From Aurantiochytrium sp. KH105 (Eukaryota; Sar; Bigyra; Thraustochytrida; Thraustochytriidae): DNA of 64,000 nucleotides. The notes under the pieces were generated by a model, which was given only the letters and a program-made list of their open reading frames with translations, ran no database searches and was not told the DNA's origin. Positions within the stretch are counted from its first letter, which is position 1. Every line of letters begins with the position of its first letter. Shown here in pieces: positions 13,170 to 51,562 of the stretch. The stretch covers positions 31,229 to 95,228 of the forward strand of contig BGKB01000207.1 in NCBI GenBank assembly GCA_003116975.1, read 5' to 3'. Made by a program: the position numbers and the translations under genes.

Positions 13170-14504
13170 TTACCTTTCAAACCACTCGAAAAATTCACAG
13201 GTCTGCGTGCTATTGGGGTTGCACTTGAAGAAATAACGCGAAGCTTTGACAGAGTACTTTAACGCGGCGGAACGGCCGCACGTGCACTTGGGTGCCTGTG
13301 AGGCAATCATGGGTCTTCGCATGCGAAACGTAAGACTGATTCGGGCAAGTTGGGTGAGCGGATGCGCCCCAATCGATTCGTGACTCTGCGTTGGAACACC
13401 ATGCTTCCACGACTCCTGCGCGCCAGGCCACATGATGATGGCATGGTTGTGAGGGACCCTAGCCGTGTAGACCTCTGAAATCTGCTTTGTATCGCTTTCG
13501 ATCTTGTGCCACCGAAAATAGCGCGTACTTCCGAGCGAAAGTGCCGCGACGATGGCACGGGGTCCCAAGGTTGTTAAATAATCGCTATGAAAGGCAATTC
13601 CATCTGTGCCGTCTCGGTAATAGTTACAAAGCGCAAATGAAGGTTTCCATGCTGCTACATAGGCATCATCACCTTTGTGCGAGCGTGCGAGGCCCCTTTC
13701 ACAGCGAGCCGCAAAGCGTTCCCGCACGAGATTTTGCATAGCCTCGGAGGACTCCTCAAGGCGCCGAAGCGTTGACTCAGGCGTGACGTGTGTTGGGTCC
13801 GCGTCTTTGTTGGCATCTTCATCGACGGCATCGCGACGTTCGCGCTCGCGCGTGACTGTGCCCTTGTCAAAGCGGTATGTAGCGCTCAGTCGGTTGGTTC
13901 CTCCTGTATTGTTAAAGACTGTCCACACGGAGGGTTTCCACGAGGCTTTCGCCTCGCGCATGAGCATTTTCGCGAGATCGGCTGCGAGGTCTGCTGCAAC
14001 AGCACCAGGTACAATCTCAAAGGGGCAAGCGAGGCGCTCAAGGTCCTGATTGGTGAGGGCGCGCTCCTCACGAGACCCTTTGGCACGAACAGTGATAAGT
14101 TCGGGTCCCCTTGCGCGATGAAATTGACCAAGAAATGCAACCTGGCTTGCGTTTTCTGCGGCACCACACTTGCTTTGCGAGTCTTGCTCGCTTCGTGCGA
14201 GACAGTGGCGAGCGAGGTGTTCGTCTACTTTGAGCAGCGGCATACTCACTCCGCAAGCTGGACAAGCGACGCGTCTTTGTGCGTGAGAGCGCTCGTCATC
14301 CACAAATGCATCTGGGGATGGTCGATCCTCGCGTTGGCGTTTTCTCCAAAAGCTATGCAATGAAGCCTTGTCTTTGCCGTTCCCTTTGCCTTTGCCTTTC
14401 GAGTTATCAGCACTGATGCGTTTGATGGAGGAGGTGGAGGAAGAGGATGATAACGATGACGAGGAGGTAGTAGAGGAGGCGAGTGAGTTTTTGTTTAGGT
14501 TCAT
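13170..14504 (-). CDS. AlkB-family dioxygenase with UBZ-like and GRF zinc fingers
   Basis: A 444-residue protein from ATG 14504. Order: a Ser-rich N-terminus; a KASLHSFWRK segment (about 46-55) resembling a PCNA-interaction motif; a Rad18/UBZ4-like finger at 81-101 (CPACGVSMPLL...HLARHC); the 2-oxoglutarate/Fe(II) dioxygenase core (about 160-400); and a C-terminal GRF zinc finger at 407-443 (CTCGRSAALKY...FFKC...CEFFEWF). Iron ligands are His306 and Asp308 (AFHSDYL) and His368 (WKHGVP). RISLTFRMRR at 388-397 supplies the 2-oxoglutarate arginine. AlkB enzymes of the ALKBH2/3 type remove alkyl groups from DNA or RNA. The added ubiquitin-binding and nucleic-acid-binding fingers suggest recruitment to stalled forks; this role is inference. 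A minus-strand, intronless gene. Confidence 0.9.
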   Translation of the reverse strand: MNLNKNSLASSTTSSSSLSSSSSTSSIKRISADNSKGKGKGNGKDKASLHSFWRKRQREDRPSPDAFVDDERSHAQRRVACPACGVSMPLLKVDEHLARHCLARSEQDSQSKCGAAENASQVAFLGQFHRARGPELITVRAKGSREERALTNQDLERLACPFEIVPGAVAADLAADLAKMLMREAKASWKPSVWTVFNNTGGTNRLSATYRFDKGTVTRERERRDAVDEDANKDADPTHVTPESTLRRLEESSEAMQNLVRERFAARCERGLARSHKGDDAYVAAWKPSFALCNYYRDGTDGIAFHSDYLTTLGPRAIVAALSLGSTRYFRWHKIESDTKQISEVYTARVPHNHAIIMWPGAQESWKHGVPTQSHESIGAHPLTQLARISLTFRMRRPMIASQAPKCTCGRSAALKYSVKASRYFFKCNPNSTQTCEFFEWFER

Positions 14505-23089: not shown

Positions 23090-24631
23090 TCATCGCTGCT
23101 GCTTGGAAAAGTTGCTCGAAAGCGAGTTGATGTCTACAAAATGGCCCATGCGACGCGCCTTCGCCTGCACGTAGTTCATGGAATAGTCCGAGTTCGGAAC
23201 GACGATGCACTCGAGGCGCTCCGTAATGGTAATGCCAAGCGCCTCCAGGCACTCAATCTTGCGCGGGTTGTTGGTGAGAAGGCGAACGCTGTCAATTTTC
23301 AAGTCACGAAGAATGTCACGGACCGAGTCGTACTCGCGAGCATCGTCGGGCAAGCCAAGATGGCGGTTGGCGTCCACAGTATCAAGTCCCGTTTCCTGCA
23401 TGGCGTAAGCGGCAATCTTGTTGGCCAAACCGATGCCACGACCCTCTTGCGGAAGGTAGAGTACGATTCCCCCGGCCGGTGCAGGCGTGGCCTTGTTCAC
23501 ATCCTCCGGGTGCGGTTCTTGCTTGAGCCCATGATCAGGGACGGCGGACTCGCCCTTGATGAAGTTGAGCGCAAAGTCGAGCTGCTGTTTGCAGTCACAC
23601 TTGAGGCTGCCAAAGATTTCGCTCGTCAGACACTGATCGTGAACACGCACAACGACATTGCTCTGACCCTCGACATTGCCATGAATGATGGCAAGAGGCT
23701 CGGCGCCCGTCTCCGGGTTGCGGTACGCGCGCACGCGATAGCGACCATTGTGCGTGGGCAGAGTTGTCTCGGCGACAAATTGATACCGGGTCTCCTCCGC
23801 GGGTTTTTCAGCTGCATCCGAATTAAGAAACCGCGTGGCGTAGTTTTGGTGTCGATAGAGAGACTTGTTATCGGTCTGCTCGCTGTCTCCGCCGCGCTGG
23901 GTGGGCTCGCCCTCGATGTCCGCCTCGCCTTCGCTGGCGTCATTCGGGGCCTTGTCTTTGAGGGCGTCAACTGTGACGAGGCCCTTGGCGCTGCCGTATC
24001 CAATATACACGTTGTCCAGAAGCGCAGGTCCGCGTGGGATGGACGAGTACACGGAAATGAGCGCCAAGGCGTCGTCCAGGCACAACCGCGGGTAGCTCTG
24101 CATGTGCGGCGGGATGGGGATGCCGATGACCTCACCGTGGTACACGGAGAGCGCCTTTTTGTTGTTGTCGAACTCCGGTTTGATCGTGAGAATGTTCCAG
24201 AACGGCTGGCCGTCTTTCCTGTAGTTGAGGATGACCACGCTCGTCTGACTCGTGTCCTTCATGGCGGACCGAAGCTCCTCGACGTCGTTCGGGTCGGTCT
24301 GTTCTCCCTGCAGAAAGTTGCACTTGCGCCCGACCATCTCCTTCTCCTCGTACCCCGTGAACGTGAGGAAGGCGGGCGTCACGCTGAGCACAATTCCGCT
24401 CTCGTCCGTGAGAATCTCGTTCGACGGCAGCGAGGCGAAGTTGCTTGCGCTGCGCGCGCGTCTGCGGATGCTCCCCTTGATCACCGTTGTACTTCTAAAG
24501 TCCATCGGCATGTTCTCAGGCGGCTGCCCGCTCTCCGCGGCAGATTCCGACGCTGCGGCGGCTCTCGTCGGCGCCATCTCCCCGGGTGCCCCCAAGCCAG
24601 GCGTCGTCTCTCGGTCCACGCTCTCGCCCAT
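23090..24631 (-). CDS. LOV domain - GTP cyclohydrolase II fusion
   Basis: The frame is open to 24844, but the first ATG is at 24631 (MGESVDRETTPG), giving 513 residues. A LOV-type PAS domain lies at about 68-172: ILTDESGIVLSVTPAFL, VGRKCNFLQGEQTDP with the candidate photoactive Cys104, and VVILNYRKDGQPFWNILT. A roughly 110-residue linker follows. The C-terminal half (about 283-511) is GTP cyclohydrolase II. The zinc cysteines are 334, 345 and 347 (HDQCLTSEIFGSLKCDC). QEGRGIGLANKIAAYAMQ supplies the catalytic Arg398 region, and LLTNNPRKIECL is also conserved. An insert of about 25 residues (SAVPDHGLKQEPHPEDVNKA) splits it. GCHII converts GTP to the first riboflavin intermediate, formate and pyrophosphate. 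Light control is inferred. The DHBP-synthase half found in plant/bacterial fusions is absent. Confidence 0.93.
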   Translation of the reverse strand: MGESVDRETTPGLGAPGEMAPTRAAAASESAAESGQPPENMPMDFRSTTVIKGSIRRRARSASNFASLPSNEILTDESGIVLSVTPAFLTFTGYEEKEMVGRKCNFLQGEQTDPNDVEELRSAMKDTSQTSVVILNYRKDGQPFWNILTIKPEFDNNKKALSVYHGEVIGIPIPPHMQSYPRLCLDDALALISVYSSIPRGPALLDNVYIGYGSAKGLVTVDALKDKAPNDASEGEADIEGEPTQRGGDSEQTDNKSLYRHQNYATRFLNSDAAEKPAEETRYQFVAETTLPTHNGRYRVRAYRNPETGAEPLAIIHGNVEGQSNVVVRVHDQCLTSEIFGSLKCDCKQQLDFALNFIKGESAVPDHGLKQEPHPEDVNKATPAPAGGIVLYLPQEGRGIGLANKIAAYAMQETGLDTVDANRHLGLPDDAREYDSVRDILRDLKIDSVRLLTNNPRKIECLEALGITITERLECIVVPNSDYSMNYVQAKARRMGHFVDINSLSSNFSKQQR

Positions 24632-25335
24632 GTTCCCCTTCGCGTTCTCGATCCCGCAAGCCCGCACGCGACGCGCGCCCGCCTTCCCGCCCAAACGCCA
24701 CGCCCAAACGCACGCACGCACGCCCGCCCAAACGCACGCCCGCCCGGACAGCCCCAGAAGGCCCTGCGCCGCCCTCGCCCTGCTCCGCGCGCGCGATGCC
24801 GCCCTCGATGCCGCTCTGCTCGCCCTCGGCCTCGGCGTCGCCAATGCCGACCTCCCGCACCGCCGGGTTTGACTGCACGCTTTCCGCGGCGCACACCCCG
24901 GGACGCGCGCGCTCTGTCCCCGTGCGCGGAATGCCGCTTTTCCCGCGCCGGGGACCCCCCCCCCTTTCTGAAGCCCGCCCGCACCCTCGAGGCCGTCGTC
25001 CGTCTGGTGACCTTGGCCTGGCTTGGCCTGGCCTGGCGCCCGTGGCTCACGTCGGCCCTCGGCCGCCGGAGACTACTCTCGGGCTCCGCGGCGCGAGTCC
25101 AGGGGAGGACTGGGTCCAGTTCGCGCAGCCGCACGATGCTGATGCGCGCAAAAGTGTAATAATAGTGACTGAAGTGAAGTGAAAGATGTGACGGAGAGGG
25201 AGGAGGAGACGAAGCTGGAGCTGGAGCTGGGGCTGAGCGTTACCGCCGCGGACCGCGCAGAGCAAAAGTGAACGAACCGCGGCGACGTCACGGGGCCAGC
25301 GGCGAGGCGGCGACGGGGAGGAGGGACGCGGGGAG
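24632..25335. promoter_or_regulatory. Divergent promoter region, LOV-GCHII / VKOR
   Basis: A 704-base, very GC-rich spacer with outward-facing neighbours. The LOV-GCHII frame remains open through about 210 bases of it, but the encoded Arg/Ala-rich peptide lacks an ATG. ACGC/GCCC tetramer runs occur around 24712-24750. No core element is recognisable. Confidence 0.4.
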
Positions 25336-25866
25336 ATGGCGCGCGCGAGGAGGACGCCGACCTGGCGCGTGCGCGCGGTGCAGGCGGACGCGCTCCTCGG
25401 CGTCGTCGTGAGCGCGTACGCGCTGTACGTGGAGACGCAGCTGCGCGAGTCGCCGCTGTACGAACCGGCGTGCAACTCGTTCGGAGGCTCGTGCGCCACG
25501 GTGCTTACCTCGTCGCACGCCCATATTCTGTCGCATTGGGGCATCGTGCCGCGCGGCCACGTGCTCGACCTCAGTCTCGCAACGGCGGGCATTTTGCTCT
25601 ATTCGACGTACCTGCTGGCGATCTCCATCCCCTTTAGCTTTCCGCTCCGCGAGCATCTCTTTCTCGCCGCAGCCGTCTCAGGCGCCTGCTTCTCCGTGTA
25701 CCTTTTGTACGTCATCAAGTACATTTTGCACGACTTTTGCATTGTCTGCACGAGCTTTCACGTTTGCAACTTTTTCATGTTGGTCTTGGCGATCTTGGAG
25801 TTTCGCCAACCCAGCGTCCCGTGGCCCAGGAAGGCGCCGGTGGGCTCCGTCAAGAAGCAAGACTGA
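25336..25866 (+). CDS. Vitamin K epoxide reductase-like protein (VKOR)
   Basis: A 176-residue membrane protein from ATG 25336. The four hydrophobic helices of VKORC1 are present (about 18-32, 78-99, 105-130, 138-155). The active site CIVC (Cys135, Cys138) is in the last helix and is followed by the conserved TSFH. The loop cysteines 46 and 53 (PACNSFGGSCATVL) are in the place of VKORC1 Cys43/Cys51, and SHWGI follows. The enzyme passes electrons between quinones and thiols, either reducing vitamin K or helping oxidise protein disulfides in the ER. No thioredoxin-like domain is fused, unlike many bacterial and plant VKORs. Intronless; convergent with the nucleoside hydrolase gene. Confidence 0.93.
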   Translation: MARARRTPTWRVRAVQADALLGVVVSAYALYVETQLRESPLYEPACNSFGGSCATVLTSSHAHILSHWGIVPRGHVLDLSLATAGILLYSTYLLAISIPFSFPLREHLFLAAAVSGACFSVYLLYVIKYILHDFCIVCTSFHVCNFFMLVLAILEFRQPSVPWPRKAPVGSVKKQD

Positions 25867-26203: not shown

Positions 26204-27205
26204 CTACTCCTTCTTGGGCATCTCCGAAAAGACTGCGTCCTGAAAAACGCGCTTGAGACGAGGAATGTCCGCGCTCATGACCACATCTACATTTGCAGCA
26301 CCTTGAGGGAGATCCGGAGGGTCCACAAACTGACGCAGGTCAACGACCGTCATTCCGCGCGTGTGTTGCCCTGTGAGCTCCACGCGCACATTATGAGCCT
26401 TGGTTACAAAAGCGTCCGGGTCGATCACGCCGGCCACCGTGCCCGCGTCGCCCAGCACGGCCGTATCTTTCTCCCATTGTCGCATTTCCCGAAACATGAG
26501 ACGCGCAGCAACTTCAGGCCCAGAATGCTTGCACTCATTCGCGCTGGCAGGATTTACAATACCCAGCGCAGCGAGCTCGCTTGCAGAAAACTCGACATTC
26601 ATGAAAAGATCCCAGGGATACATGGTGATGGGAATGCCGCTACCGAGCACGATCGAAGCTGCCTCCGGATCGTATGCAGCATTGGCCTCAGACCACGCCA
26701 TGTAGTTACCACCGCTGCTCACGGCCCCACCCATCCAAAAGATTCGTTTGATGCCCTTTTTGCAGGCTTCCTCATCGATGCGAAGTGCCATGGCAATATT
26801 CGTGAGCGGGGCCAAAGCGATGAGTGTCACTGGGTCCTCTGCACGAGCCCGCTCGCGGAAGATATCAACGAGCATGGGCACGGCGTGTTTCTCGTGCAGG
26901 GAGCGGTCTGTGGTTCGAGGCACAGGAGGATCAAGATCACCAAGGCAATCGACACCGTGGATGAAGGGCGCGGCGTGCAAATCTTCAATAAGCGGCCTTG
27001 CGCAACCTTTGGCGACAGGCAAATCTTCCGGCGCGCCTGCAGCGTCCAAGACACGTAATGTGGCGTCGGTGACGGTGTCGACATCACCGTTTCCCGCGAC
27101 GCAGCTCACCGCAATGACATTGAGCGCTGGAGATCTCACGGCAAGAATCAATGCCAGTGCGTCGTCAACGCCAGTGTCCACGTCCATGACCACATCTTGC
27201 GGCAT
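26204..27205 (-). CDS. Inosine-uridine-type nucleoside hydrolase
   Basis: A 333-residue reading from ATG 27205 (MPQDVVMDVDTGVDD). The frame is open further upstream to an ATG at 27370, but the extension looks untranslated. The calcium/ribose signature DVDTGVDDALAL has Asp8, Asp10, Asp14 and Asp15 at the same numbers as in classical family members. IALAPLTNIAMALR, FWMGGAV, GNYMAWSEANAAYDPEAASIV (Glu and Asn ribose ligands) and IDPDAFV are also typical. Such enzymes hydrolyse nucleosides to base and ribose for salvage. The second catalytic motif, commonly HD, reads GDAGTVAGVIDP here: Asp is kept and His is replaced by Gly. Nucleobase preference is unknown. The gene is head-to-head with EMC3. 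Confidence 0.9.
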   Translation of the reverse strand: MPQDVVMDVDTGVDDALALILAVRSPALNVIAVSCVAGNGDVDTVTDATLRVLDAAGAPEDLPVAKGCARPLIEDLHAAPFIHGVDCLGDLDPPVPRTTDRSLHEKHAVPMLVDIFRERARAEDPVTLIALAPLTNIAMALRIDEEACKKGIKRIFWMGGAVSSGGNYMAWSEANAAYDPEAASIVLGSGIPITMYPWDLFMNVEFSASELAALGIVNPASANECKHSGPEVAARLMFREMRQWEKDTAVLGDAGTVAGVIDPDAFVTKAHNVRVELTGQHTRGMTVVDLRQFVDPPDLPQGAANVDVVMSADIPRLKRVFQDAVFSEMPKKE

Positions 27206-27593
27206 CTTGTGCTTGCTGCTGTGCAAGCCCGCTCCCAAGCGCACGTGTGCAAGTGGTTCACCTAAGCTCACGCGTGCAAGTGGTCTACCCGTTGGTCGAC
27301 TGCAGTGCCACCAAATTGCGTGTTGCCTCAACACGAGTCGTTGCCAGCCGCTTCTCAAGCCAACGTGCATGCATGCAGACAAGCAGACAGGCAAGCAGAC
27401 AGAAAAGCGGGGTTTGGTTTCCCGTGCGCTTTGCTTCGATGCACGCGCGCTGCAGCCCTTTGCTCCACTGCCGCTCGAGCTTTCCGCACCAAAGTCTAGC
27501 GGCTAAACAATCAACGCAAACCTCGGCAAACCCTTTTTATTCTTCTGGATAAGACAGGCAGAAGCAGACGCGGCGCCACCTCAGCTCGCCACC
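27206..27593. promoter_or_regulatory. Bidirectional promoter region, nucleoside hydrolase / EMC3
   Basis: A 388-base spacer between divergent start codons. A CTTTTTATTC segment lies at about 27531-27540, roughly 55-60 bases upstream of the EMC3 ATG. CAGA/AGGC-type repeats lie around 27376-27405. Confidence 0.45.
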
Positions 27594-39478: not shown

Positions 39479-42400
39479 TCAATGCGAAGAGCGTTTGCCG
39501 GCTGGCGGAGACAATGATGCAATTTCGGCCATGTGTGCGCGCGTGCAGATCCGCACCTCTGGTGAACGTGCTGCACACTCGAGCAAAAGTTTGCTTCCGT
39601 GAAACACCACTAGCTCCCAGCGCGCGAGCTGCTTGGTCTGGGCCGTAACCAGCTGCTCTACAAGCTTCTCGACCACGTACGAGGCACGAATGCGCATTGC
39701 AAACGGTCTCCATTCCGCACACGGAAGTAAAAGCTGCTTGAGCAGGCGAAAGAGAACCAATACCTGCGGATGCACCGTCAGGGTGGGTCCTCGTTGAAGA
39801 ATGGATGTCACCAAAAATGAAGCGAGTCCCATCGCCATTCGTTCTGATGACCGGCTCAGGTCCTCCATCATTTGCACGGCGCAGGCCTCATCGAGCATGA
39901 TCAGACGTCGCCACAAACCTGCATTCACGGCAAGGTTCACAAGGCCGTCCTTGTCGTCAGAGAGAGCTTCGTCCTTATCGCCCAGAACGCCGTTACCAGC
40001 ACCAGCACTTGCAACGCCAATACTTGCGCCACCGGTTTCATCAGGACTAGCGCCAGCACTAACGCCGGCGTCGTTGCCCTCTGAGCCCCCATCCGCGGTA
40101 CTTTCACCGTCTTGTTGCACTGTTACATCGCCGTTCACGTGCGGTGGTATCGTTGAAACGCTAGAGACATTGGCGCTGGTAGATGTGGCCGCTGTCTCGT
40201 GAGGATCAGTAGCACCATCATAAGCAACCTTGACGCCAGCATCTTGAGCATCTTGAAGCTTTTGCTCGGTGTTAATACTCATGTCGACATTGCCATTGAT
40301 GACTTTCTCCACTACCTCCTCTTCATCCTCCTCCTCTTCATCGTCCGTGGTATCATGGTGCGAATCGTCGACGACAATCAGGTCGTCCAGAATGCTATAG
40401 TGCCGCCGCGAGCGCTTGCGTTGTAAACGACGCTGGGCCGCACTTGCGACGAGAACACGCAAAAGACTCGCCGCCGCCTTTGTTCCCGGCGTCGGGACTG
40501 AACCTTCGTACGATGTATAAGCTTTTGTGACGGGCCGTAGCAAACCAAAGTCAAGCAGCATGCCACTCTCCACAGCCCCAAGAGACGCAAAAGCCTCCAT
40601 TATTACAAAGTACTGCACACACGCGTCCGGAGTGGTCATCTGCTTGGAGAGCCAAGAGTGAAATGCGCGGACAAATCGCGAAACTGCCTCTGCATTGGCA
40701 AGCGCCTGGCCCTCCATCGAGGCAACCACAAGGCGCGCCACGGCCTGCCGGACGGTCGGTTTAGGGCACAATAGAAATACTTGTTCCACCCGGTCCTTGT
40801 CTTCCAGGTACGAGAGGAGCCACCGCTGCGCGCTGTCGCTCCCGCTGATAAGTTCCACCAAGCGCACCTCCCATTCCGGGAAAAGGCCTTCCACCAACGT
40901 TCCCCAGCCATGGGCGGGAACATCGAGAAGGAACTGGATGCTTAGCCGGGCAATCGCCGCTCGGGATTCTTCCGTGCCAGCGTCAAGCCCAATGCGCATT
41001 AAATTCCAGGCGAACTTGTACGTGCTCGCATCAAACACATAGTTGTGACGAATAAACGTAAGATTGTCCTTGAGCAAGGCATCCACCACGTGCGATGGCA
41101 ACTTAAGCATGGACACACGCTGAGTTCCGTCTCTTGGCTGGCGCAAGTCGCGCGCTCGACTTGCATAGGCGAGGACTCTTGCATCCAAACGAGCCGAACT
41201 GCGTCGCCTTCGTCTGTGCATAAAATGCTGCAGCATCTCGATACCGCGCTCGTCTACACCACGGTCCTGCGCGACTTGCTCCCAGGACCGTCCATGCCGC
41301 TGCGTACGCATACCTTCGCGTCGACTTGACCGCGCCAACGGCGATAGAGAAAGTCGAAACGCACTTGAATCCGCAGCGCCGTACGCAGGGTCAAACTTGT
41401 TTTCCAAGTCGCCACTCCCGCGACGGTTTTTGCTTTCCCGCGCACTACCCGCTCCGCACTCGCTCCCACTGTCCGAGCCGGCCGCTGCGTCAAGCACAGC
41501 AAGAATGTCCTGAGGACTTGAGATATTGAAGCGTCCCAGAAGCCCTGCTTGCTCCATCGTGATCAACGGAGGTGCTGGCAGGTCCTCATCATCGTCCTCC
41601 TCCTCTTCGTCATCCTCCTCGGCTGTTTCGGCACCTTCTTCGTCAACCTCAAGACCAGCTGTCTCTGCTTTCATTGCCTGGGTCTGTTCTTCAGCTGAGA
41701 CATGATTCTCGGAGACAGACGGCGCGTCCTCCTGCTCCTCCTCATCGTTTGCACCATCACTTTCGACAAGGAGCGCCGCGTGCTCACCAGCTTCGTCGAC
41801 TGAAGCAAGACCTGCAAGGTGATCCAAGTTTGCGTCAAAGCCCCGTCCCGAATCAAGACCTAGCGAATCGTCAGTGTTTTCAACGCTACTCTTGATGTGA
41901 TTGCCATCGTCGTTGACGTCGTTGACGTCGTTGGCGGCGTTATCGTCCACTTCAACACCTGGGGCATACTCCTCGACCACGTCGCTATTATCGCTGTCGC
42001 CCTCGTCATCGTCGTCGTCGTCGTCTTCGTCGCTCGATATGGCCGAATCTTGCTTGGTGTCCTCGAGATCCTCGAGATCGCTCCACAAACCCGGCGAGTT
42101 GCCGAGCTTTGTCTCTGGAGAAGCGTCGCTCGCCCAGTTCCCTTGCGATTGCTGGGTCATCTTGCGGTCATAGACTAGCATGTAAGCACTGCGCGACTTG
42201 ATCACCTCTGCGACTGATCCGTCACTACGCATGATACGCTCCTTGCCGCCAAAGCAGTCGCCCGGAATGCAGTCAATTGGGTATGGCCACACAAACTTAT
42301 CATTGAACTCGATCCATTGACCTCCAACCTTGGGAAATCGAGGTCGGCGCTCGCGAACAAACGAATAGTAGTGTCCCGAATCCATCGTGCCGGTATGCGC

Positions 42401-45400
42401 AATGACGCCGACCAGCTCATATTGATAGAACCCTGAGCCCATGCGACCTTGAGGATCCTCTGCACCGGCGTTGAGTCTTGAAGACGAGCCTGTCTCTTCA
42501 GGCCCACCTTCGAGAGATTCTGTGCTTGAGACAGGTACAGACCCGCCCGAGATGGACTCACGCGATACCGAGTCCTCATCAGGGATATCGTCCTTGCTCC
42601 CACCCGGCGTACGCACGCTGCTGTTCTGTGAAATGTAGTCGTACGTAAAGGGTTCAAGGTCGAGCGAAAGTGGAAACTCAAAGCGGTCATTCAGCTTGCG
42701 CCGCGTAAGTGTCTGCAAGTCAAATTCAAAGCGCTTCAAGTTGATAATGAGATGGTCCGGAAGCTCCTTGATACACGTCCGCTTGATGGCGTCGACGCGT
42801 TCGCCAGATTCGAGCTTGTACTGGTTGTCGCCCGTCAAAAGCTCGCTTTGCACCATGGCTTCGAGCGCTTCAGACAACGTCGAACAACCCTTGATGTCGA
42901 GCGGCAACGAGTGGAACGGGTCCGGTCGCTCCGAGACATACGGGTTGTTCGGATCCTTGCTGATGATTTGGTTCACAAGCAAACCTCGAAAGTGAGACTG
43001 GACAATTTCACGCGCGTGCTCTGACTCGGACTCGACATGATCGAAAAGCTCCGCGGCGAATTCATTCACGTCACGCTGCTCAGAGAGATCGATTGACGCC
43101 CCGTTTGCCTCAGCAAGAGCTTTGCAAAACGGAAAAGGATCGTAGTAGTGCTTTGTGCTCACACGCAAAGATCCAAAGGTGACCTGCAACTGGTGCAAGA
43201 ATGTCCCACTGCGCACAGATCGGATCGACAAAATCGCCTCGCTAAAACTCGGAATGTGAAAGAGCTGCTGGATGAATGAGTTCATGTAGCACGTGGCGCC
43301 AAGATTCTGAAGTCCAGTAAATTGCTGCGGATGCTTGACGAGCGCCAAGGGGTTATAGTGCCACTCTTTGGCGAAGCGTGCGCGAAATCCAACCTTGGCG
43401 GAACCCCCAATGCCATCCTCCTCGAGGAGCTCGCACAGAAGCGCCAAGTTAGCCGGACAGTCTTCAAGAAGCTCGACGAGCAACGCGAAAGCTGCATCGC
43501 GGCTCGCCTCGCTCTTGCACAGCGCACTGCGGTCATGAAGGATCAGCGACTGACCGCTGAATGATCGACGTAGCATACCGCGCGCGCGGCGACCGTGCGA
43601 GTAGGATGCGCCACTGTATCGGCGGTCGCTCGACGTCGGTGTCGGCACGGAGCCGTGCGGGGTCCCAGGGGACTGTTGTTGCGCGCTTTGCTTCTGTCGC
43701 GCTTCTGAGCGAATCATCTCCAAGCGTGCGCGGTCTCCCTCAAAAGTGTAGCTATTTGCAAAGAGCAGGTCGTGATACAAGTACTTGAGCAGATTGTGTT
43801 CTGCTGCGAGGGTCTTTAGCGACGGATCTTTGGCCACCACCGTTCGCAAGAGACGAAGTAGGCCGATCATGAGCTGATCTTCTCGATCTGTGTGGAAGCT
43901 CTCAAGGCTTTCGTGCATGAGAAGTGCGTCCAAGCTGCGAAGAAAGATTTCGCGCGTCAACGACGATATTGCCTCAGGTTGGTGGTCATGCCATAAAAAC
44001 TCTTCGTTGGGCTTGCTCGCTGCTGCACTTGCCTTTGGCGTAAAATTCGGTGCATTGATCAGATTCTCATCGACCATGTCAATCAGACCAAGCATGAGCA
44101 TGTGAAACTCGCGACACGAAGACGAAAGATTCCGGTGGGCGCGGCGCACAAGCATGCCGTCACGTTGCTCGGATCGCAGAGGCGCATGCATTGCCTTGTC
44201 GATGGGCAAAAGGAGGATGAGGTAGTCGCGCGAAAAAGCTTTGCGCTCAACAAAGAGAGAGTCGTCACGCACGCCCTCGCACGAATTTACCAGTGAGCAC
44301 AGCGTCAGGAGTGCGCCGCACGCACGTGCGCGGGTGACCTGGTCTTCGCAGTAAATGACGAGCTGCTCTGTCAGCTCGCGAATGTGCTCGAATCGAATGA
44401 AAGACCGCATGGTCTCCACGTCACCGACGGTGATGCAACTCATCACAAGATACATGGCCCTGTCGACGACTTCGCGCATCATATCCACAGAAATAAAGGC
44501 ATCGGCAGTACACAAGAGCATTGCTTCCAGCGAGGACTCAACGATGCGCGGGAAATCCTCCGGGCGACACGCGTGGACATCTGCCAGCGGGGGTGGCGCA
44601 AAAAGTGATCCTTTGGAGACAGAGGGGCGCAGTGGCTTGGTCGGCACCGCGTGCTTTGCCTGTTCTGCTTCGTTGTCTTGGTCATGTTCACTGGCGCGAA
44701 TCTCGTCGGCTTTGGAATTCTGCTTATTCTGGTGGTCCTCTGCGGGCGTCAGAGCATCTGTGCCAGTGATTTTAGAGTTGCTGCTGCTGCTGCTGCTGCT
44801 ATTGCTGCTGCTGCTTTTGCTGCTGCTGATGATGCTGTTTGCCGCATGCTGCTCGCTCGTTTCCAGCGGCGGCACATCTTCTATTGGCAAATCGATCGAA
44901 TCTGCAGGTACAGAGCGGTTTGGCGCGGGGGTCGCTGTGTTGCGTCTTGCTCGACGCACGGCTCTTCGACTCTTAATGTTGATCATTGTCGCAAGACGCC
45001 AAAAGGCATTCTCATCACCTGGCGCCGGGCTACTGCCCCCCGCAACATCTTGCGACGGCGAAGAGTGAGGCAGCAAATCCTGCTGTCCGCCTATCGCAGA
45101 TTGGATTGCGCCATCCTCCCCTTGAAGAGGGCTGTTCACGGGCGAGCTCGGTCGCAAGGGCGAGCCCAAGCCCTGCTGAGAGCCGGAAAGTGGAGAGATC
45201 GCAGTGTATGGCGATGCTGGCGAGTTCAGAGACGACGCGAAACTTGATCGAGATCCCGAAACTTGGAGGAAGTAAGCGAGGCGCCGTCGAAATCCTTTAT
45301 CCGCGTAGAGAAGTGCGGCAATGATTTGGACAAGCACAGAAATGCACTCGATGCGCCGAGGTCCAGAGAGCGAGCGATGATTGAGCAAAATTCGCAAGAG

Positions 45401-48400
45401 ATGCTCTGTTCCTGCGCCTGACACAAAGCGCTTGAGCCAGGCGGACTGCTCCCCCAACGGATGAAGGGTGCGAGAATCGAAGCGCAGGTCGAACTTGGGC
45501 ATGTCAAATGCACGTTCGGCTTCCATCTTGCGTCTTACGATCCGAAGTGCATACAAGAGTCGATGCGTGGAGTGAAGAGGCAAAAGACGGTTCCAGTCCT
45601 GGTCGAGAGACTCGATCGCCTTGACCATGGCTTCATCCTTTTGAAGAAGCAGCAGACAATCCCAGACGTTCTGCATAGCGCCTGGATCTGATGATACAAC
45701 GGACTCCTCGCTCTCTCGAGCTGGATCCAGTACCTGGAACATGTCTCCGCAGATGGAGTTGATGAAATCTCCTGAAAATGCGAGCGACGACACTCGGGCG
45801 TCGGGATCAGAAACACCATCTGTGCCAGCAGACGATGCAGCTGACATTGTCTTTGCGTCCGTACCCTCTGCGACAAGAGCTGCAAGGGGAGACGCATATC
45901 CAGACTCGAGTGCCTTTTGAACGAGAGGTGTTGCAAGTGCCACGAGTTGGTCCTGACGTCGTTCGTCTCCGCCAACGGGCTGAAGGCGTTCCTTTTTAGC
46001 TCCATTTGGTCCAACAGCTCCGGGCACCGTTGCGCGCTCAAGTTTGACGTCCAGGACTTTGATGGAGTCCCAGTCACGAATGCCGAGATCTTTAAGGGTA
46101 CGTTTGAGATCTGTATCTGCGAAAGGCTTGGGCGGCCCTTGCAGCTCGAGCTTTTCCGCCTGTAGCGAGTTTCCTTCCGCGGCGCGATAACCGTGAGACG
46201 AGCCAGGTCCCGGGGGGTGATGATTTGCAAGGCCGCCCTTGCCGCCCTTGCCGCTCTCTTCAGCGGATACTTCCTTCGATGCCGTCGTTGTCTCCACAGT
46301 AATGGGTCGGGTGGTCTTGTCTTCGCCCGTTTCCGCCGCCTGTTGCTGCTGCTGCTGGTGCAAGTCCGAACCAATATCGCCAAATTTCTCCTCGTCGTCC
46401 GTAAACCAGTCGTCAAAGCCTGTTGCCGGGTCAGGGGCGCGGCACGGATTATTCACGAGCCGCAGCGATAAACTTGCTGCTGGGACCTTGATCTTCTCCG
46501 CAATCATCGCTTGAAGGTCCCCGAGAGTAGCTTCTTCACCAAGACGCAATGAAAAGGAAGTCCCAGGTCCAATGGGGATGTACTCGCGGCGCGTGAGCGA
46601 GCCCGGAAAACCAACCGCGGGCGGAATCACGACGATGCTAAGCTCCGACAGGGAAGCATGCTCGCTGTATTGGCTGAGGAAGAGCTTGAGGGTCGCCGAG
46701 GCTCGTCTCGCCTGCCGGAGCATCTTAAGCGAGTCCATGCCAGCTTTGTTGATTTTGTGCGCCTCGATGATTTTGCGCACGCACAATTCCACAAACTCCA
46801 TTTGCATTTTCCCTTTGCGACCTTTGAGGCGCGGAGCCACGTGCGTATGCAAGTACACCAAGTGGGCGACGGCTGCAAGGCCAACCTCGTGGCGACGCGC
46901 TTCGAGAGCTACGCGCCACAAAAAGTCGCCACCTTCCAAGGAGGATCCGTGGCGTTCGATGAGGCGAAAGAGAAATGCAGAATTTGGAGCATTCAGCATT
47001 GCGCGCGAAAGAGCGCGAGCCTCTTGGTCGCGGCGTGTCCTCCGCGCCAAAAAGGTGCCATTGTGCTCGGGTCGCGCCCGACGCAGATTCCGTGCCCTGT
47101 AATTAATGGCCATAAAGAAGCTTTGATAGACTCGAAAGGCAGTTGGCGTAAGCGACTCCGTCCCGAGAAGCTGCATATGTTCGCGAAACAAGTTTGCCGC
47201 AACGTCTTCGGAAAAGACCGAATTCTTGGATACGAGATCTCCCGGCTGCCCTTTACCATTGCCCGAGGACTTGTTGTTGCTGCCACTGGTGGTGCTGCTG
47301 TTGTTGGCACTGCTGTTCTTGGTTCCGTTTGCTTCGAGCGAAGCCGCATTGGTTGCAGTGCCCGCCTGCGCGGGTGTCGAGGCAGCCTGCGTGTCCCCCG
47401 CAGGCGTGGCGGCGGGCGTTTGTGCTCCTCCAGCGGTGGAGCCAACTTCTGTTAGATCTTCTTGCAACTGGGAAACACGACGGATCCCGCTTGCTTGCGA
47501 TCGTGCAAACCAGAGAAGAGCGATATCCTGCGAACGCTCCGTCGGCGCTGCGGCAACCATGGCCATCCATAGCTCTTTTGCCGGAGTCTTTTTCAGATGC
47601 AGGTATGAATTTGTCAACACAAAGAGGAGAAAATCGAAGCGTTCCGCGAGCTGGTCCAAGTGTGTGTACACGCTCCCCGGAAGACAGAATCCATCAACGT
47701 CTTCAGGACTGAGACGGGTGCCTGCGATCCCAGATGCGACGAGGCGGATGCGGCTCTGGTAGTGCGTGAGACCCGCGCACACGAGTCGGACGAGTTTGTG
47801 CTGTTTGTCGAGACGTTCAATCATGAGTTCTGTTGGCGTACGACGATTTTCTGAGATCGAAAACCAAGAAGCTTTGGCCTGCGGCGAGACCGTGATGATC
47901 CGTCGAAGAACTTCGAGCGCTTGTGGAACAGACTTGTCTTTTCGAAGGAGCTCGATGCAATCCTGCAAAATTCGGCCTCGCTGCGAGGCGCAGCGAGACG
48001 AGCCTGACAAAAGCTTGATCAAGAGACTGATGGCCTCGCGCCGCTGGGCAAGGGACCTTGAATTTCTCGAAAAGGAGGACTGCCGCGAAATTGAAAGTGC
48101 CTGGTTTTCCTTTCCGTGCTTGGTGGACAGCTCTTCGCCCCGACGAGGTGGCGGTGAAGCCCTTTGGCCAGTGGCATCAGGACCCATCTTTGTAGAATTC
48201 TTATCTGCCTCCTCCTCTTCTTCATCTTCTTCTTCTTCGTTGTCTTCCTCCTCATCTCCCTCCTCCTCCTCCGCCACGTCCTCCTGGTCCTCATCCTCTG
48301 CTGCGACATTCCCATTTACGTCTTTGCCCATCTTTTCACGTTCAAGGGAAACTATTCTTGGCCCATTACGTTCGTCATTGGCGTTGCGCTCGTTCGATAT

Positions 48401-51400
48401 GGTGGAGGGCTCATCACCAGACCTTTGATTCTTCCGGAGCTCCCAGAGCTTGCTTTCTTCGCTGGAACCCTTGTTCACACCATCCACAAAAGAATCGTCT
48501 TCATCGCCGGTCACTTTGTCGCTGGAGCCGAGCGTTTTGATCTGCTTGCTACTGTTGCTATTTTCCGCTGCAAGAGAGGAAGTCGCCGCATGAAGCGCTG
48601 CATCGTCAGCTCGTCTCGATTTTGCTTCCACGTCGTGACGGTGCTGGTGTGACGGTGTCGTGCTCATTTCGCTGCTGTCACTGCTGCTTGACAAATCCTT
48701 GCTATCCTCACGCTCGATCGTGTCGTCGTCAGATGTCTGCGAATCATCAAGGATGAAGCGCCAGAGAAGTCGCAAGCCGTACCAGTAGTCGTCGGGCGCG
48801 TACTCGAGCATGTGTGCTTCCTCGCGTCCAAAGGCATCCCCATAGCGCGCCGACGTAGTTCCAAGGGGCGCGCTCTTCGGTCCGCTTCCGCTCGCTCCTA
48901 CTGCAGCGCTTTCCACGGCAGCAATGGAGAGCGAGCCTGACGAAGGCACGCGTGGGGCTGGTGAGTTTGATCTGCGGCTTGAGGGCCCATTATCGGGCGA
49001 GCTCATTCTCGCTGTACTGGGTGACCGTGAGAGTTTGCCATGCGACTGAGGGGCCCCGTCCGCTTCGAGTGCAACAACGGTGACCTCGGAAATGAAGCGC
49101 AAGATCTCTCCTCCCTCGTCATATTCATGAAAGGGGATGGCTGCCACGCAGTCCTTAAAAAAACGCATTCTCTCTTCATGTGAAAGCCGAGGGATGAGAG
49201 ACACGAGCAAATTGTGAATGACGCGCATTGTTGCGTGGTCTCTCCCGAGGCTGGCAGACCACACACGCTGCAAGAGTCGATCGTCCAAAATGCGTTCGCG
49301 ACTCATGAACAGGATGACAGCCGTGCTGCGACTGAGCATCTCAAAGTGCAGATTCTTATTGGCGTAGAGCTCCGAGACGACGTTTGCGCGTTTGAGCCAG
49401 TTCTTGAACCAATCCTTCCCGATCAAGGTGAATGCGCATAAAGCTGCTTGACTTGTACTTCCGCTTGCGCGTTGAAGCCCCGCGGAAACACCGCTGAAAG
49501 CAGCTTGTCGTTGCTGTCCGTCTTGCTGTCCTTTGCCTCCCTGAGGCGTAGAGGATCCTTTGGACGTTGCTGACGCCGAGCCGGAGGACGACTGGCGCGT
49601 AAAAGCAGCTGACTGCGAGTTCGCGCGCACGCCCTCGAGAATGTTGTGCAGACCAAAGAGGCGCGCCTCGATGGAGCTAAGCCGCAAGAAATCAACCATG
49701 GTTTCCATGATCAGACGCTCCTGAGTGCACTGTGCGCTCCGCGTCTTGGCAACGTCGCTTTCCGAGCTGGATGACGCAAGAACCCGAGCGGCAGCATTTG
49801 CGATGTGAATTAGATCAGAGGGATGTTGCTGGACGTTTTTGAGTTCCGCGTCCGACATGATGCTGAGGCGTTGGCGAACGGCATTGTACAGGGTTTGGGC
49901 CAAGTGGACCCATGCGCTCATCTCTTGCCGGGTGAAGAGTGAATGAATGGCGAGCAGAGCACGAAGAAAGGCCATGACAAATGGCAGTTCCAGAGGGCGT
50001 TGCTCCTCACGAATGCGCGCGCAAATGGCTTCAAATCCACCGCAAGCAGCAAAAGTATTCACATTGGCCACGAGGTACTCTGAGAGCTCGAAGGAGGCGG
50101 TAGGCTCCGGTAAGCGCAGCAGAGGGTTTTGTCGAGGAGCTTCAGTTGCGACGCCTTCTTCCTCATCAAACGCGAGATCATCATCATCATTGTCGACTTC
50201 GTCCGTGCCGTCTTCAGGAGATGATTTGGAGGATTGTCCATGTTGATGTTTCAATCCGCTGGTATCCGGCTCGAAACGGAACGGCTTTTCCAAAAGATTG
50301 ACGCGCAGACAGCCCTGGCCGTCGGTGCCCTGCATTTCGCCTTGGCGAAGACGATGACGCTCTTCGTCGTCAAGGCCAGGGTCACCACCGTCTGGGCCAT
50401 CTTCTTTGATGCCAGATTGTTGTGATGCAACTGCCGGAGGAGTTGCAACATCGAGCATGAACTCAAAACCCTCGCGCTGTAAGACGCGGCCAACGAGCAC
50501 CTTACGTGGGTCGATCTCGACATGAACGATGTCACCGACGAGAGGAAATGCTCGGCCGGCTCCTGGATTTTTCAGTGTCTTCACTTCATCATAATTGCTC
50601 CATCGAACACGAAATCGTGACGCAGGTGCGTCTGACCCAGGTTGACTCGTATCAGAGTCTCCCCGCGCAACTTGGTCCTCGACAAGGTACGTGTCCGATT
50701 TGAGATCGTAGGAGAGCAGAGTGACGATGCGGGATCCCCCGTTGGCGATACCAGCTGCTGCTTCCCGGAGCGGTTTTGCTTCGTTGGATGCATGTGAAAT
50801 AAGTTCGACAGTCTGACCGATGCGAGCCTGCATTTTCTGCATAATATCTCGAGATTGTGCTGGCCAGAAGAAAAGCTTGCGCTTGTCGCTACTGACGACG
50901 TACTTTGGCTGCCCGCGGTAGCTGTAAAAGCTTCTGCGGCCAGACACGGAGTGCACGGCGGCAGCGACGTTGGCGACAGTTCGCACACTTTTGGGGGATG
51001 CCGCCGCGTTGGCGGCTGCAGACGCGCTCTGTGGAATTGTGCGCGGTTGATGCACCGGCCCATCGAGAAGCATGAGGACAATTCGGCAGAGTGCAAAGTA
51101 GTCGAGAGGCATGGCGGCTTTGCCAAGCCTGAGCACGGACTGAAAGAATACATTTGTTTGGTCTGCGTGTGCGGGTGCAATGGAGCACGTGAAGAAGAGC
51201 GCGTGCACGACCTCGAGAAGATCTTCGTCCAAGAGTTGGTTTTCCGCGTCGGATAATACGTTTCGGTTGACACTAGCATTTGCCTCGATGGTTCTGCGTA
51301 TGCGATCGGTGACTCGTTGCAAGCGTGCCAGCGCGGTTGCCCACTCTGCATCATTCGACTCTGTAGTCTCTTTGAGAACTTTGAGTTCTTTTCCTAGCGC

Positions 51401-51562
51401 GACCATGTCACGTTCACTGCTGGCAGGCTCTGGGTAGTTCTTCGCGCGGTTCCCTTCACGGTCGTCGTCGTTGGGTTTGGGGTCTGGGTCCACGGTCATC
51501 ATTTGCGCCATCGTTTGCGCCCCGCTCGACGCGCCTTGCACATCTGACGTTGCGGACTCCAT
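39479..51562 (-). CDS. Giant ubiquitin-specific protease (USP9X/USP34-like)
   Basis: A single uninterrupted frame of 4027 residues from ATG 51562. The USP catalytic domain lies at about 2748-3135. The Cys box is GLQNLGATCYMNSFIQQL (catalytic Cys2758) and the His box TGTMDSGHYYSFVRE (His3064), with LIINLKRFEFD and RDVNEFAAELFDHV between. A ubiquitin-like segment (about 1650-1715, from YIPIGPGTSFSLRL to KVPAASLSLRLV) and long helical solenoid regions on both sides match the USP9X/USP24/USP34 class, which removes ubiquitin from trafficking and signalling proteins. Low-complexity inserts include poly-Ser/Asn coded by a TGC-strand repeat (44778-44835) and several Asp/Glu runs. A poorly conserved insert of about 80 residues separates the two catalytic boxes. 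All catalytic residues are present. Confidence 0.93.
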   Translation of the reverse strand: MESATSDVQGASSGAQTMAQMMTVDPDPKPNDDDREGNRAKNYPEPASSERDMVALGKELKVLKETTESNDAEWATALARLQRVTDRIRRTIEANASVNRNVLSDAENQLLDEDLLEVVHALFFTCSIAPAHADQTNVFFQSVLRLGKAAMPLDYFALCRIVLMLLDGPVHQPRTIPQSASAAANAAASPKSVRTVANVAAAVHSVSGRRSFYSYRGQPKYVVSSDKRKLFFWPAQSRDIMQKMQARIGQTVELISHASNEAKPLREAAAGIANGGSRIVTLLSYDLKSDTYLVEDQVARGDSDTSQPGSDAPASRFRVRWSNYDEVKTLKNPGAGRAFPLVGDIVHVEIDPRKVLVGRVLQREGFEFMLDVATPPAVASQQSGIKEDGPDGGDPGLDDEERHRLRQGEMQGTDGQGCLRVNLLEKPFRFEPDTSGLKHQHGQSSKSSPEDGTDEVDNDDDDLAFDEEEGVATEAPRQNPLLRLPEPTASFELSEYLVANVNTFAACGGFEAICARIREEQRPLELPFVMAFLRALLAIHSLFTRQEMSAWVHLAQTLYNAVRQRLSIMSDAELKNVQQHPSDLIHIANAAARVLASSSSESDVAKTRSAQCTQERLIMETMVDFLRLSSIEARLFGLHNILEGVRANSQSAAFTRQSSSGSASATSKGSSTPQGGKGQQDGQQRQAAFSGVSAGLQRASGSTSQAALCAFTLIGKDWFKNWLKRANVVSELYANKNLHFEMLSRSTAVILFMSRERILDDRLLQRVWSASLGRDHATMRVIHNLLVSLIPRLSHEERMRFFKDCVAAIPFHEYDEGGEILRFISEVTVVALEADGAPQSHGKLSRSPSTARMSSPDNGPSSRRSNSPAPRVPSSGSLSIAAVESAAVGASGSGPKSAPLGTTSARYGDAFGREEAHMLEYAPDDYWYGLRLLWRFILDDSQTSDDDTIEREDSKDLSSSSDSSEMSTTPSHQHRHDVEAKSRRADDAALHAATSSLAAENSNSSKQIKTLGSSDKVTGDEDDSFVDGVNKGSSEESKLWELRKNQRSGDEPSTISNERNANDERNGPRIVSLEREKMGKDVNGNVAAEDEDQEDVAEEEEGDEEEDNEEEEDEEEEEADKNSTKMGPDATGQRASPPPRRGEELSTKHGKENQALSISRQSSFSRNSRSLAQRREAISLLIKLLSGSSRCASQRGRILQDCIELLRKDKSVPQALEVLRRIITVSPQAKASWFSISENRRTPTELMIERLDKQHKLVRLVCAGLTHYQSRIRLVASGIAGTRLSPEDVDGFCLPGSVYTHLDQLAERFDFLLFVLTNSYLHLKKTPAKELWMAMVAAAPTERSQDIALLWFARSQASGIRRVSQLQEDLTEVGSTAGGAQTPAATPAGDTQAASTPAQAGTATNAASLEANGTKNSSANNSSTTSGSNNKSSGNGKGQPGDLVSKNSVFSEDVAANLFREHMQLLGTESLTPTAFRVYQSFFMAINYRARNLRRARPEHNGTFLARRTRRDQEARALSRAMLNAPNSAFLFRLIERHGSSLEGGDFLWRVALEARRHEVGLAAVAHLVYLHTHVAPRLKGRKGKMQMEFVELCVRKIIEAHKINKAGMDSLKMLRQARRASATLKLFLSQYSEHASLSELSIVVIPPAVGFPGSLTRREYIPIGPGTSFSLRLGEEATLGDLQAMIAEKIKVPAASLSLRLVNNPCRAPDPATGFDDWFTDDEEKFGDIGSDLHQQQQQQAAETGEDKTTRPITVETTTASKEVSAEESGKGGKGGLANHHPPGPGSSHGYRAAEGNSLQAEKLELQGPPKPFADTDLKRTLKDLGIRDWDSIKVLDVKLERATVPGAVGPNGAKKERLQPVGGDERRQDQLVALATPLVQKALESGYASPLAALVAEGTDAKTMSAASSAGTDGVSDPDARVSSLAFSGDFINSICGDMFQVLDPARESEESVVSSDPGAMQNVWDCLLLLQKDEAMVKAIESLDQDWNRLLPLHSTHRLLYALRIVRRKMEAERAFDMPKFDLRFDSRTLHPLGEQSAWLKRFVSGAGTEHLLRILLNHRSLSGPRRIECISVLVQIIAALLYADKGFRRRLAYFLQVSGSRSSFASSLNSPASPYTAISPLSGSQQGLGSPLRPSSPVNSPLQGEDGAIQSAIGGQQDLLPHSSPSQDVAGGSSPAPGDENAFWRLATMINIKSRRAVRRARRNTATPAPNRSVPADSIDLPIEDVPPLETSEQHAANSIISSSKSSSSNSSSSSSSNSKITGTDALTPAEDHQNKQNSKADEIRASEHDQDNEAEQAKHAVPTKPLRPSVSKGSLFAPPPLADVHACRPEDFPRIVESSLEAMLLCTADAFISVDMMREVVDRAMYLVMSCITVGDVETMRSFIRFEHIRELTEQLVIYCEDQVTRARACGALLTLCSLVNSCEGVRDDSLFVERKAFSRDYLILLLPIDKAMHAPLRSEQRDGMLVRRAHRNLSSSCREFHMLMLGLIDMVDENLINAPNFTPKASAAASKPNEEFLWHDHQPEAISSLTREIFLRSLDALLMHESLESFHTDREDQLMIGLLRLLRTVVAKDPSLKTLAAEHNLLKYLYHDLLFANSYTFEGDRARLEMIRSEARQKQSAQQQSPGTPHGSVPTPTSSDRRYSGASYSHGRRARGMLRRSFSGQSLILHDRSALCKSEASRDAAFALLVELLEDCPANLALLCELLEEDGIGGSAKVGFRARFAKEWHYNPLALVKHPQQFTGLQNLGATCYMNSFIQQLFHIPSFSEAILSIRSVRSGTFLHQLQVTFGSLRVSTKHYYDPFPFCKALAEANGASIDLSEQRDVNEFAAELFDHVESESEHAREIVQSHFRGLLVNQIISKDPNNPYVSERPDPFHSLPLDIKGCSTLSEALEAMVQSELLTGDNQYKLESGERVDAIKRTCIKELPDHLIINLKRFEFDLQTLTRRKLNDRFEFPLSLDLEPFTYDYISQNSSVRTPGGSKDDIPDEDSVSRESISGGSVPVSSTESLEGGPEETGSSSRLNAGAEDPQGRMGSGFYQYELVGVIAHTGTMDSGHYYSFVRERRPRFPKVGGQWIEFNDKFVWPYPIDCIPGDCFGGKERIMRSDGSVAEVIKSRSAYMLVYDRKMTQQSQGNWASDASPETKLGNSPGLWSDLEDLEDTKQDSAISSDEDDDDDDDEGDSDNSDVVEEYAPGVEVDDNAANDVNDVNDDGNHIKSSVENTDDSLGLDSGRGFDANLDHLAGLASVDEAGEHAALLVESDGANDEEEQEDAPSVSENHVSAEEQTQAMKAETAGLEVDEEGAETAEEDDEEEEDDDEDLPAPPLITMEQAGLLGRFNISSPQDILAVLDAAAGSDSGSECGAGSARESKNRRGSGDLENKFDPAYGAADSSAFRLSLSPLARSSRREGMRTQRHGRSWEQVAQDRGVDERGIEMLQHFMHRRRRRSSARLDARVLAYASRARDLRQPRDGTQRVSMLKLPSHVVDALLKDNLTFIRHNYVFDASTYKFAWNLMRIGLDAGTEESRAAIARLSIQFLLDVPAHGWGTLVEGLFPEWEVRLVELISGSDSAQRWLLSYLEDKDRVEQVFLLCPKPTVRQAVARLVVASMEGQALANAEAVSRFVRAFHSWLSKQMTTPDACVQYFVIMEAFASLGAVESGMLLDFGLLRPVTKAYTSYEGSVPTPGTKAAASLLRVLVASAAQRRLQRKRSRRHYSILDDLIVVDDSHHDTTDDEEEEDEEEVVEKVINGNVDMSINTEQKLQDAQDAGVKVAYDGATDPHETAATSTSANVSSVSTIPPHVNGDVTVQQDGESTADGGSEGNDAGVSAGASPDETGGASIGVASAGAGNGVLGDKDEALSDDKDGLVNLAVNAGLWRRLIMLDEACAVQMMEDLSRSSERMAMGLASFLVTSILQRGPTLTVHPQVLVLFRLLKQLLLPCAEWRPFAMRIRASYVVEKLVEQLVTAQTKQLARWELVVFHGSKLLLECAARSPEVRICTRAHMAEIASLSPPAGKRSSH
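44778..44835. repeat. GCT/TGC trinucleotide repeat inside the USP coding sequence
   Basis: In the coding (minus) direction it specifies a serine/asparagine run. It is interrupted by TAT and TTT units. Confidence 0.9.

Follow-up and report, generated by a model that had tools for sequence, protein, structure and literature searches.

Results

Gene structure and coding signal

The gene described here occupies positions 23090-24631 on the minus strand of the window, which is the whole 64,000-nucleotide stretch of Aurantiochytrium sp. KH105 DNA that was analysed. It consists of a single open frame of 513 amino acids plus a stop codon, and translation of the minus strand across this interval gives zero internal stops. 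A LOV/PAS domain is encoded in the N-terminal part and a GTP cyclohydrolase II (GCHII) in the C-terminal part. The start ATG at 24631, which has the context GAACATGG, is the sole ATG in any frame across the 600 bases upstream.

Coding potential was evaluated with a score for codon usage, whose training set was 6077 codons from five other open reading frames of the window; two of these five frames have no Pfam match. For the LOV-GCHII frame, sampled every 100 bases, the score stays above zero from 24600 to 23200, across the linker as well; it is -0.08 at 24700 and -0.19 at 23100. Of the seven upstream steps, one is slightly positive (+0.05 at 25000). Over the steps 24600-23200, the other two minus-strand frames score negative or near zero (maximum 0.08), and the plus-strand frames are chiefly negative with scattered positives of up to 0.37. 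The LOV part (0.16-0.33) scores in a similar range to the GCHII part (0.18-0.41). Because the signal is positive over all steps from 24600 to 23200, including the linker, both domains are assigned to one exon; on the basis of the open frame and the coding statistics, the gene is read as producing a single transcript. LOV-GCHII is thereby confirmed as a real gene with both domains in one frame. Two separate genes were considered and rejected on the unbroken coding signal across the junction (24200-23700).

Genomic context

The neighbouring genes of the window are eukaryotic and include a dynein heavy chain N-terminus, an Hsp70, a UBP24/USP9X-type deubiquitinase, a VKOR-family gene and an LSM protein. 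A bacterial contaminant was rejected on the evidence of such genes as those for dynein, the deubiquitinase and LSM. The frames in the window are long and uninterrupted, which suggests that the genome is intron-poor. One example, at 39479-51562 on the minus strand, is an apparently intronless single frame of 4027 amino acids with UCH and UBP24/USP9X ARM-type domains. Scans for tRNA genes and Rfam families in the window returned zero matches each.

Several other features of the window are recorded here. The VKOR-family gene (25336-25863, plus strand, E 4.3e-19) is divergent from the LOV-GCHII gene, and the intergenic region of roughly 700 bases may be common to both. An inosine-uridine nucleoside hydrolase (26204-27394, minus strand, E 2.4e-75) lies about 1.6 kb from the GCHII gene and is probably unrelated to it. 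A 574-residue frame at 56739-58463 (minus strand) has a weak AP2 match, at 32 bits against a Pfam cut-off of 33.3, and a TSR2-like frame narrowly misses its own Pfam threshold (25.8 against 26.8). A 2OG-Fe(II) oxygenase, presumably AlkB-like, is encoded at 13170-14504 (minus strand); its C-terminal match to a GRF zinc finger does not reach the cut-off.

The GTP cyclohydrolase II domain

GCHII catalyses the committed step at the start of vitamin B2 (flavin) synthesis. In the predicted protein, this domain spans residues 284-500 (23132-23782, minus strand), as supported by Pfam and by a fold match to 2bz0_B. The Pfam family GTP_cyclohydro2 (PF00925) matches residues 286-473 with an E-value of 9.6e-54 and 181.8 bits, against a cut-off of 23.3, and a phmmer search of the PDB matches the enzyme part to E. 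coli GCHII with an E-value of 1e-40. Among NCBIfam models, the score for NF001591 (RibA subfamily) is above cut-off (205.7 against 148), and that for the ribA equivalog domain TIGR00505 is narrowly below it (200.4 against 205.85). Foldseek comparison of the first structure model gave a TM-score, normalized on the target, of 0.91 for GCHII against 2bz0_B and 0.87 against 4rl4.

The residues expected of a functional enzyme are retained. By alignment to E. coli GCHII, the putative zinc ligands are Cys334 (codon 23630-23632, minus strand; E. coli Cys54) and the two cysteines of Cys345-Asp-Cys347 (23591-23599, minus strand; Cys65 and Cys67). Tyr409 (23405-23407, minus strand) and Arg432 (23336-23338, minus strand) align to Tyr105 and Arg128. 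We take the E. coli cysteines to bind zinc and its tyrosine and arginine to be catalytic, and have matched these roles to the residues here. All five positions are invariant in the nine aligned GCHIIs, this protein included. One loop carries an insert of about 26 residues (361-386; 23474-23551, minus strand) that, in alignments with three and with eight relatives, is not present in the bacterial and viral sequences compared. From its sequence, the GCHII part looks like a working enzyme, and the protein is presumably cytosolic.

These results bear out two parts of the original prediction, which had been made from the letters of the DNA and a list of open reading frames. One continuous LOV and GCHII frame is supported by the Pfam and PDB matches, the codon statistics and the structure model. 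Likewise, the claim of a complete GCHII with zinc cysteines and active-site motifs agrees with the residues kept in the E. coli alignment.

The LOV domain and its flavin site

The sensor part comprises about residues 74-172 (24116-24412, minus strand) and is identified as a LOV/PAS domain by Pfam, PDB and Foldseek matches. Pfam PAS_9 matches residues 74-162 (E 6.6e-14, 52.5 bits against a cut-off of 27). Among the best NCBIfam matches are the models for the blue-light LOV histidine kinase and for the YtvA family, with scores far under the full-length cut-offs of both. In the PDB, the sensor part matches the phototropin-2 LOV domain with an E-value of 4.8e-19, and its best sequence matches are mostly domains of phototropins, aureochromes and bacterial blue-light receptors. 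The corresponding part of the first model is closest to LOV structures, for example 6ph2_A (rmsd 1.5 over 117 columns).

For analysis of the flavin site, the domain was aligned with 94 other LOVs, most of them collected by patterns that require LOV motifs. The putative adduct-forming cysteine is Cys104 (codon 24320-24322, minus strand), in a column that is cysteine in all 94 sequences. Most of the remaining pocket is conserved as well: the columns of Asn136 and Gln108 are invariant in the set, that of Asn146 is asparagine in 93 of 94 and that of Arg121 arginine in 88 of 94, and Phe106 and Leu107 are also kept. Three positions depart from this pattern. The motif GRKCNFLQG (residues 101-109; 24305-24331, minus strand) differs from GRNCRFLQG at 103 and 105, so that two flavin-contact positions around Cys104 read K-C-N in place of the usual N-C-R. 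Position 103 is asparagine in 91 of the 94 aligned LOVs and position 105 arginine in 92, though these counts are biased towards N and R because the LOVs were picked largely by motif patterns. The third departure is the active-site glutamine of the last strand, which is present in 89 of the 94 sequences and absent here.

The last beta strand was placed at residues 160-172 (24116-24154, minus strand) with moderate confidence in the first model. Residues 155-175 contain no glutamine, so the active-site residue is missing in any register. Whether its place is taken by Val168 or Glu167 rests on sequence scores: over nine profile columns, and with gap cost excluded, Val168 scores -7.2 bits and Glu167 -20.5. 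The favoured Val168 register implies a hairpin longer by one residue; the Glu167 register is ungapped and is the choice of MAFFT. Because the local alignment to the LOV profile stops at residue 161, ahead of the strand that carries the signal, this strand is divergent in either register. On the plasmid side of our searches, a Methylobacterium LOV (L004:892-1323) also has a last strand that is apparently without glutamine (Leu or Ser by alignment).

The effect of such changes can be gauged from characterized receptors. About 350 natural glutamine-deficient LOV receptors have been catalogued, which mostly carry Leu, Ile or another hydrophobic residue at this site and in which charged residues are largely absent; glutamine-less receptors retain productive signalling, though it is often attenuated (available text of PMC9098866). 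In the engineered receptor YF1, according to the same text, most replacements of the glutamine (Glu and Leu included) are largely harmless, and Pro, His, Trp, Tyr or Arg abolish the response; valine is not named among the replacements in the parts of that paper available to us. Since LOVs without the glutamine can signal, its loss does not refute light sensing. The filter of Dietler et al. asks for at least eight of nine other residues, and the LOV here has seven (PMC9098866, in the portion seen). In YtvA, residues N61, R63, Q66 and R79 coordinate the ribityl chain and phosphate, and the first two correspond to Lys103 and Asn105 here. In the YtvA LOV domain, the binding constants for riboflavin, FMN and FAD are all submicromolar, and the phosphate contributes no binding energy (both from the available text of PMC3836802). 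Flavin binding by the predicted LOV domain is plausible, and its flavin preference may differ.

The original prediction had also placed the adduct cysteine at Cys104, which is correct, and had recognized the domain by its LOV motifs. Its assignment to the LOV class of PAS domains stands on the Pfam and PDB matches; the motif itself is not the standard one, with changes at 103 and 105, and the last strand is without glutamine. The prediction had remarked on neither departure, and it had left the strand of the gene (minus) unstated.

Structure models and linker

Two AlphaFold2 models were considered. The first has a mean pLDDT of 68.0 and a pTM of 0.54, and its alignment contained 47 LOV rows from 61 and nine GCHII rows. 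In this alignment the last strand of the LOV rows sat in the wrong columns, and as a result strand 160-172 and the linker are without correct alignment support. The second model (mean pLDDT 60.6) derives from an alignment that places GCHII rows wrongly on the LOV region; because of this fault, only its LOV core and its helix at 185-196 were used. Its last LOV strand is confined to residues 170-172, compared with 160-172 in the first model.

A J-alpha-like helix is predicted past the LOV core at residues 185-197 (24041-24079, minus strand; block pLDDT 57-67 in the first model), and it recurs at 185-196 in the second model. It is followed by a linker, residues 199-271 (23819-24037, minus strand), in which the coding signal continues and pLDDT is below 50 in the first model. 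This segment is possibly flexible or disordered. The low pLDDT is weak evidence of disorder because the alignment contained no related sequence for this stretch.

Search for related fusions

No LOV-GCHII fusion was detected in the DNA examined, which covered plasmids, phages, viral sequences and a sample of prokaryotes. In plasmids, a tblastn search with the full protein matched 431 records, none of which reached 80% query coverage. The best 15 of the 431, ranked by coverage multiplied by identity, are all single-piece matches, none of which starts before residue 232; any fusion should have outranked them. A search with the LOV domain by itself matched 272 plasmid records, and among the best 25 none is annotated as a cyclohydrolase. 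One of the plasmid matches, from Rhodococcus (L001:236-1980), is a RibBA that adjoins a flavin reductase and an LLM flavin-dependent oxidoreductase; this cluster is perhaps a plasmid-borne flavin supply unit.

All nine matching phage records are single-domain, five with GCHII and four with LOV. When viral_contigs was searched with the whole protein, one stretch fitted a pattern and no relative was confirmed. Searched by domain, this collection yielded 15 GCHII loci and 14 LOV loci, and a further GCHII scan yielded 16 loci, 15 of them on contigs already found. A fold search of predicted viral structures gave 14 matches with E-values up to 0.001, among them cyclohydrolases, histidine kinases and PAS domains; judged by names alone, none combines LOV and GCHII.

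In genome_contigs, a LOV-pattern scan found at least 586 relatives, the best 80 of which were kept. Across 99 LOV loci, inspected with at most 3 kb of DNA on each side, none had a GCHII match beside the LOV domain. In the six genomes reached through LOV loci, no match spans both domains, and LOV and GCHII never occur on one contig. The same was found in 39 genomes of the phylum to which the genome of locus L046 belongs, one of which is among the six. The latter search used an E-value limit of 1e-16, which drops weaker LOVs, and 32 of the 39 genomes gave any match.

The literature searched gave a concordant picture, in line with the earlier remark that this pairing had not been seen described. 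No LOV-GCHII protein was found among the matches listed, and a search for fusions of a PAS domain with GTP cyclohydrolase II found nothing. A large catalogue of LOV effectors, reportedly that of Glantz (2016, PNAS), lies outside this search and may include the pairing. The thraustochytrid light-sensing literature did not yield it among the matches listed. In the available text of PMC7017516, the LOV phrase is confined to a reference title. The word cyclohydrolase is absent from a 2025 review of algal photoreceptors (PMC12558739), as is LOV from a 2026 review of riboflavin synthesis (PMC13028884). Within the DNA and literature covered, LOV-GCHII is a new sensor-effector pairing of the known modular kind of LOV-effector proteins; its unpublished status is only indicated.

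Discussion

Comparison with known systems

For the most part, the outputs of LOV photoreceptors are kinases, second-messenger enzymes, transcription and protein degradation. LOV-GCHII shares the LOV fold, the adduct cysteine and most pocket residues with YtvA, LOV histidine kinases, phototropins and aureochromes, and is distinguished from them by its K-C-N motif, its last strand without glutamine and its biosynthetic effector. With monofunctional RibA proteins (E. coli 2bz0, H. pylori 4rl4), it has the catalytic domain, zinc cysteines, Tyr/Arg pair and fold in common; the RibA proteins lack both the sensor domain and the 26-residue loop insert. Bifunctional RibBA proteins (Mtb RibA2 4i14, Rhodococcus L001) resemble it in having an extra domain N-terminal to GCHII, but in RibBA this domain is DHBP synthase (DHBPS) and here it is LOV/PAS. 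A RibBA with a decayed DHBP synthase was considered and rejected, as no DHBPS match was found up to an E-value of 0.1 and the N-terminal domain matches PAS/LOV. Ochrophytes have their own, different GCHII fusion, DHBPS-GCHII (available text of PMC5462543).

The LOV-activated diguanylate cyclases (LadC) also place LOV N-terminal to a GTP-using enzyme, and regulation through the linker is shared with them as a working model. In contrast to LOV-GCHII, with its biosynthetic enzyme and long low-confidence linker, LadC is a signalling enzyme with a coiled-coil linker. In this natural LOV-enzyme the dark state is caged, and members with long linkers show more than 10,000-fold activation (these points from the available text of PMC10396304). 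The LOV-deltaQ receptors lack the active-site glutamine, as does LOV-GCHII, but that set was required to have eight of nine other residues, compared with seven here (PMC9098866, available portion). A transcriptional parallel is found in Pseudomonas mendocina, in which a short-LOV gene lies in the region of folE, light-induced 1.6 to 3.3 times; folE encodes GTP cyclohydrolase I, a different cyclohydrolase from the GCHII here (available text of PMC9758184).

Proposed function and alternatives

We propose that the LOV domain is an intrinsic N-terminal regulator of GCHII that places the enzyme under blue-light control, a reading to which we give a little short of an even chance. The LOV domain would bind FMN, riboflavin or FAD, which are products of the pathway or derived from them, and blue light would form an adduct between Cys104 and the flavin. 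The resulting change in the surface of the beta-sheet and J-alpha helix would alter how LOV packs on the GCHII dimer, such that LOV would hold or release the enzyme, probably with blue light. Because the linker is long and possibly disordered, a tethered clamp is expected rather than a rigid continuous helix; it would work by docking and release or by rearrangement of the dimer, much as LOV diguanylate cyclases are caged in the dark. Light would then set the flux into flavin synthesis, provided that the LOV domain is loaded with flavin. This proposal is partly supported by the single frame, the domain and fold matches, the intact GCHII residues and the retention of Cys104 and most pocket residues. 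It is made less certain by Lys103 and Asn105 at flavin-coordinating positions, the missing strand glutamine, the seven of nine filter residues and the end of the LOV profile alignment at residue 161. If Glu167 occupies the glutamine site, it would be of a charged type that is largely absent from natural glutamine-less LOVs (available text of PMC9098866).

The same departures at the flavin site would matter less if the LOV domain read the level of FMN or riboflavin and not light, with loaded LOV inhibiting GCHII and apo-LOV freeing it as a form of end-product feedback. We consider such an arrangement unlikely, though it has precedents in part: the YtvA LOV domain binds riboflavin, FMN and FAD at submicromolar levels and can be refolded without flavin (available text of PMC3836802), and a short LOV protein has been crystallised in the apo state with its E-alpha and F-alpha elements rearranged (available text of PMC5314338). 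In the text available, no LOV domain is established as a sensor of flavin level. In addition, the adduct cysteine is kept despite being unneeded for flavin sensing, although a single sequence cannot show selection. The three changes at conserved flavin-site positions could also mark a degraded photosensor, or an inherited fusion in which LOV is structural, targeting or vestigial and has no effect on GCHII. The long low-confidence linker fits this as well, and constraint is judged here from one sequence with no orthologue beside it. Such a silent domain is nevertheless also unlikely: the cysteine and the rest of the pocket are intact, the core (82-161) reaches 106 bits when matched to a profile built from 94 LOVs, and the LOV and GCHII parts have comparable coding scores. 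The single-frame reading was made from genomic sequence, and two genes or a misassembly could in principle be read as one frame; with one in-frame ATG, one stop, and no stop, frame shift or loss of coding score through the junction, this is very improbable.

Returning to light control, its fullest form is put forward tentatively, as a possibility well short of even. LOV-GCHII would in that case be a natural light-gated enzyme of primary metabolism: its LOV domain would gate the committed step in making flavins while using as chromophore a product of that very pathway. Light and flavin status would serve as a joint input, through glutamine-independent signalling and a tethered clamp.

Implications

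LOV-GCHII permits a clear test of whether a natural LOV domain without the glutamine, and with altered N-C-R residues, can gate an enzyme. If the proposed regulation is true, the protein would also lend itself directly to optogenetic control of vitamin B2 synthesis. A LOV domain placed on the committed step in the synthesis of its own chromophore would constitute a self-referential control loop. As judged from the sequence of this gene, either blue light or flavin itself may control how much flavin is made.
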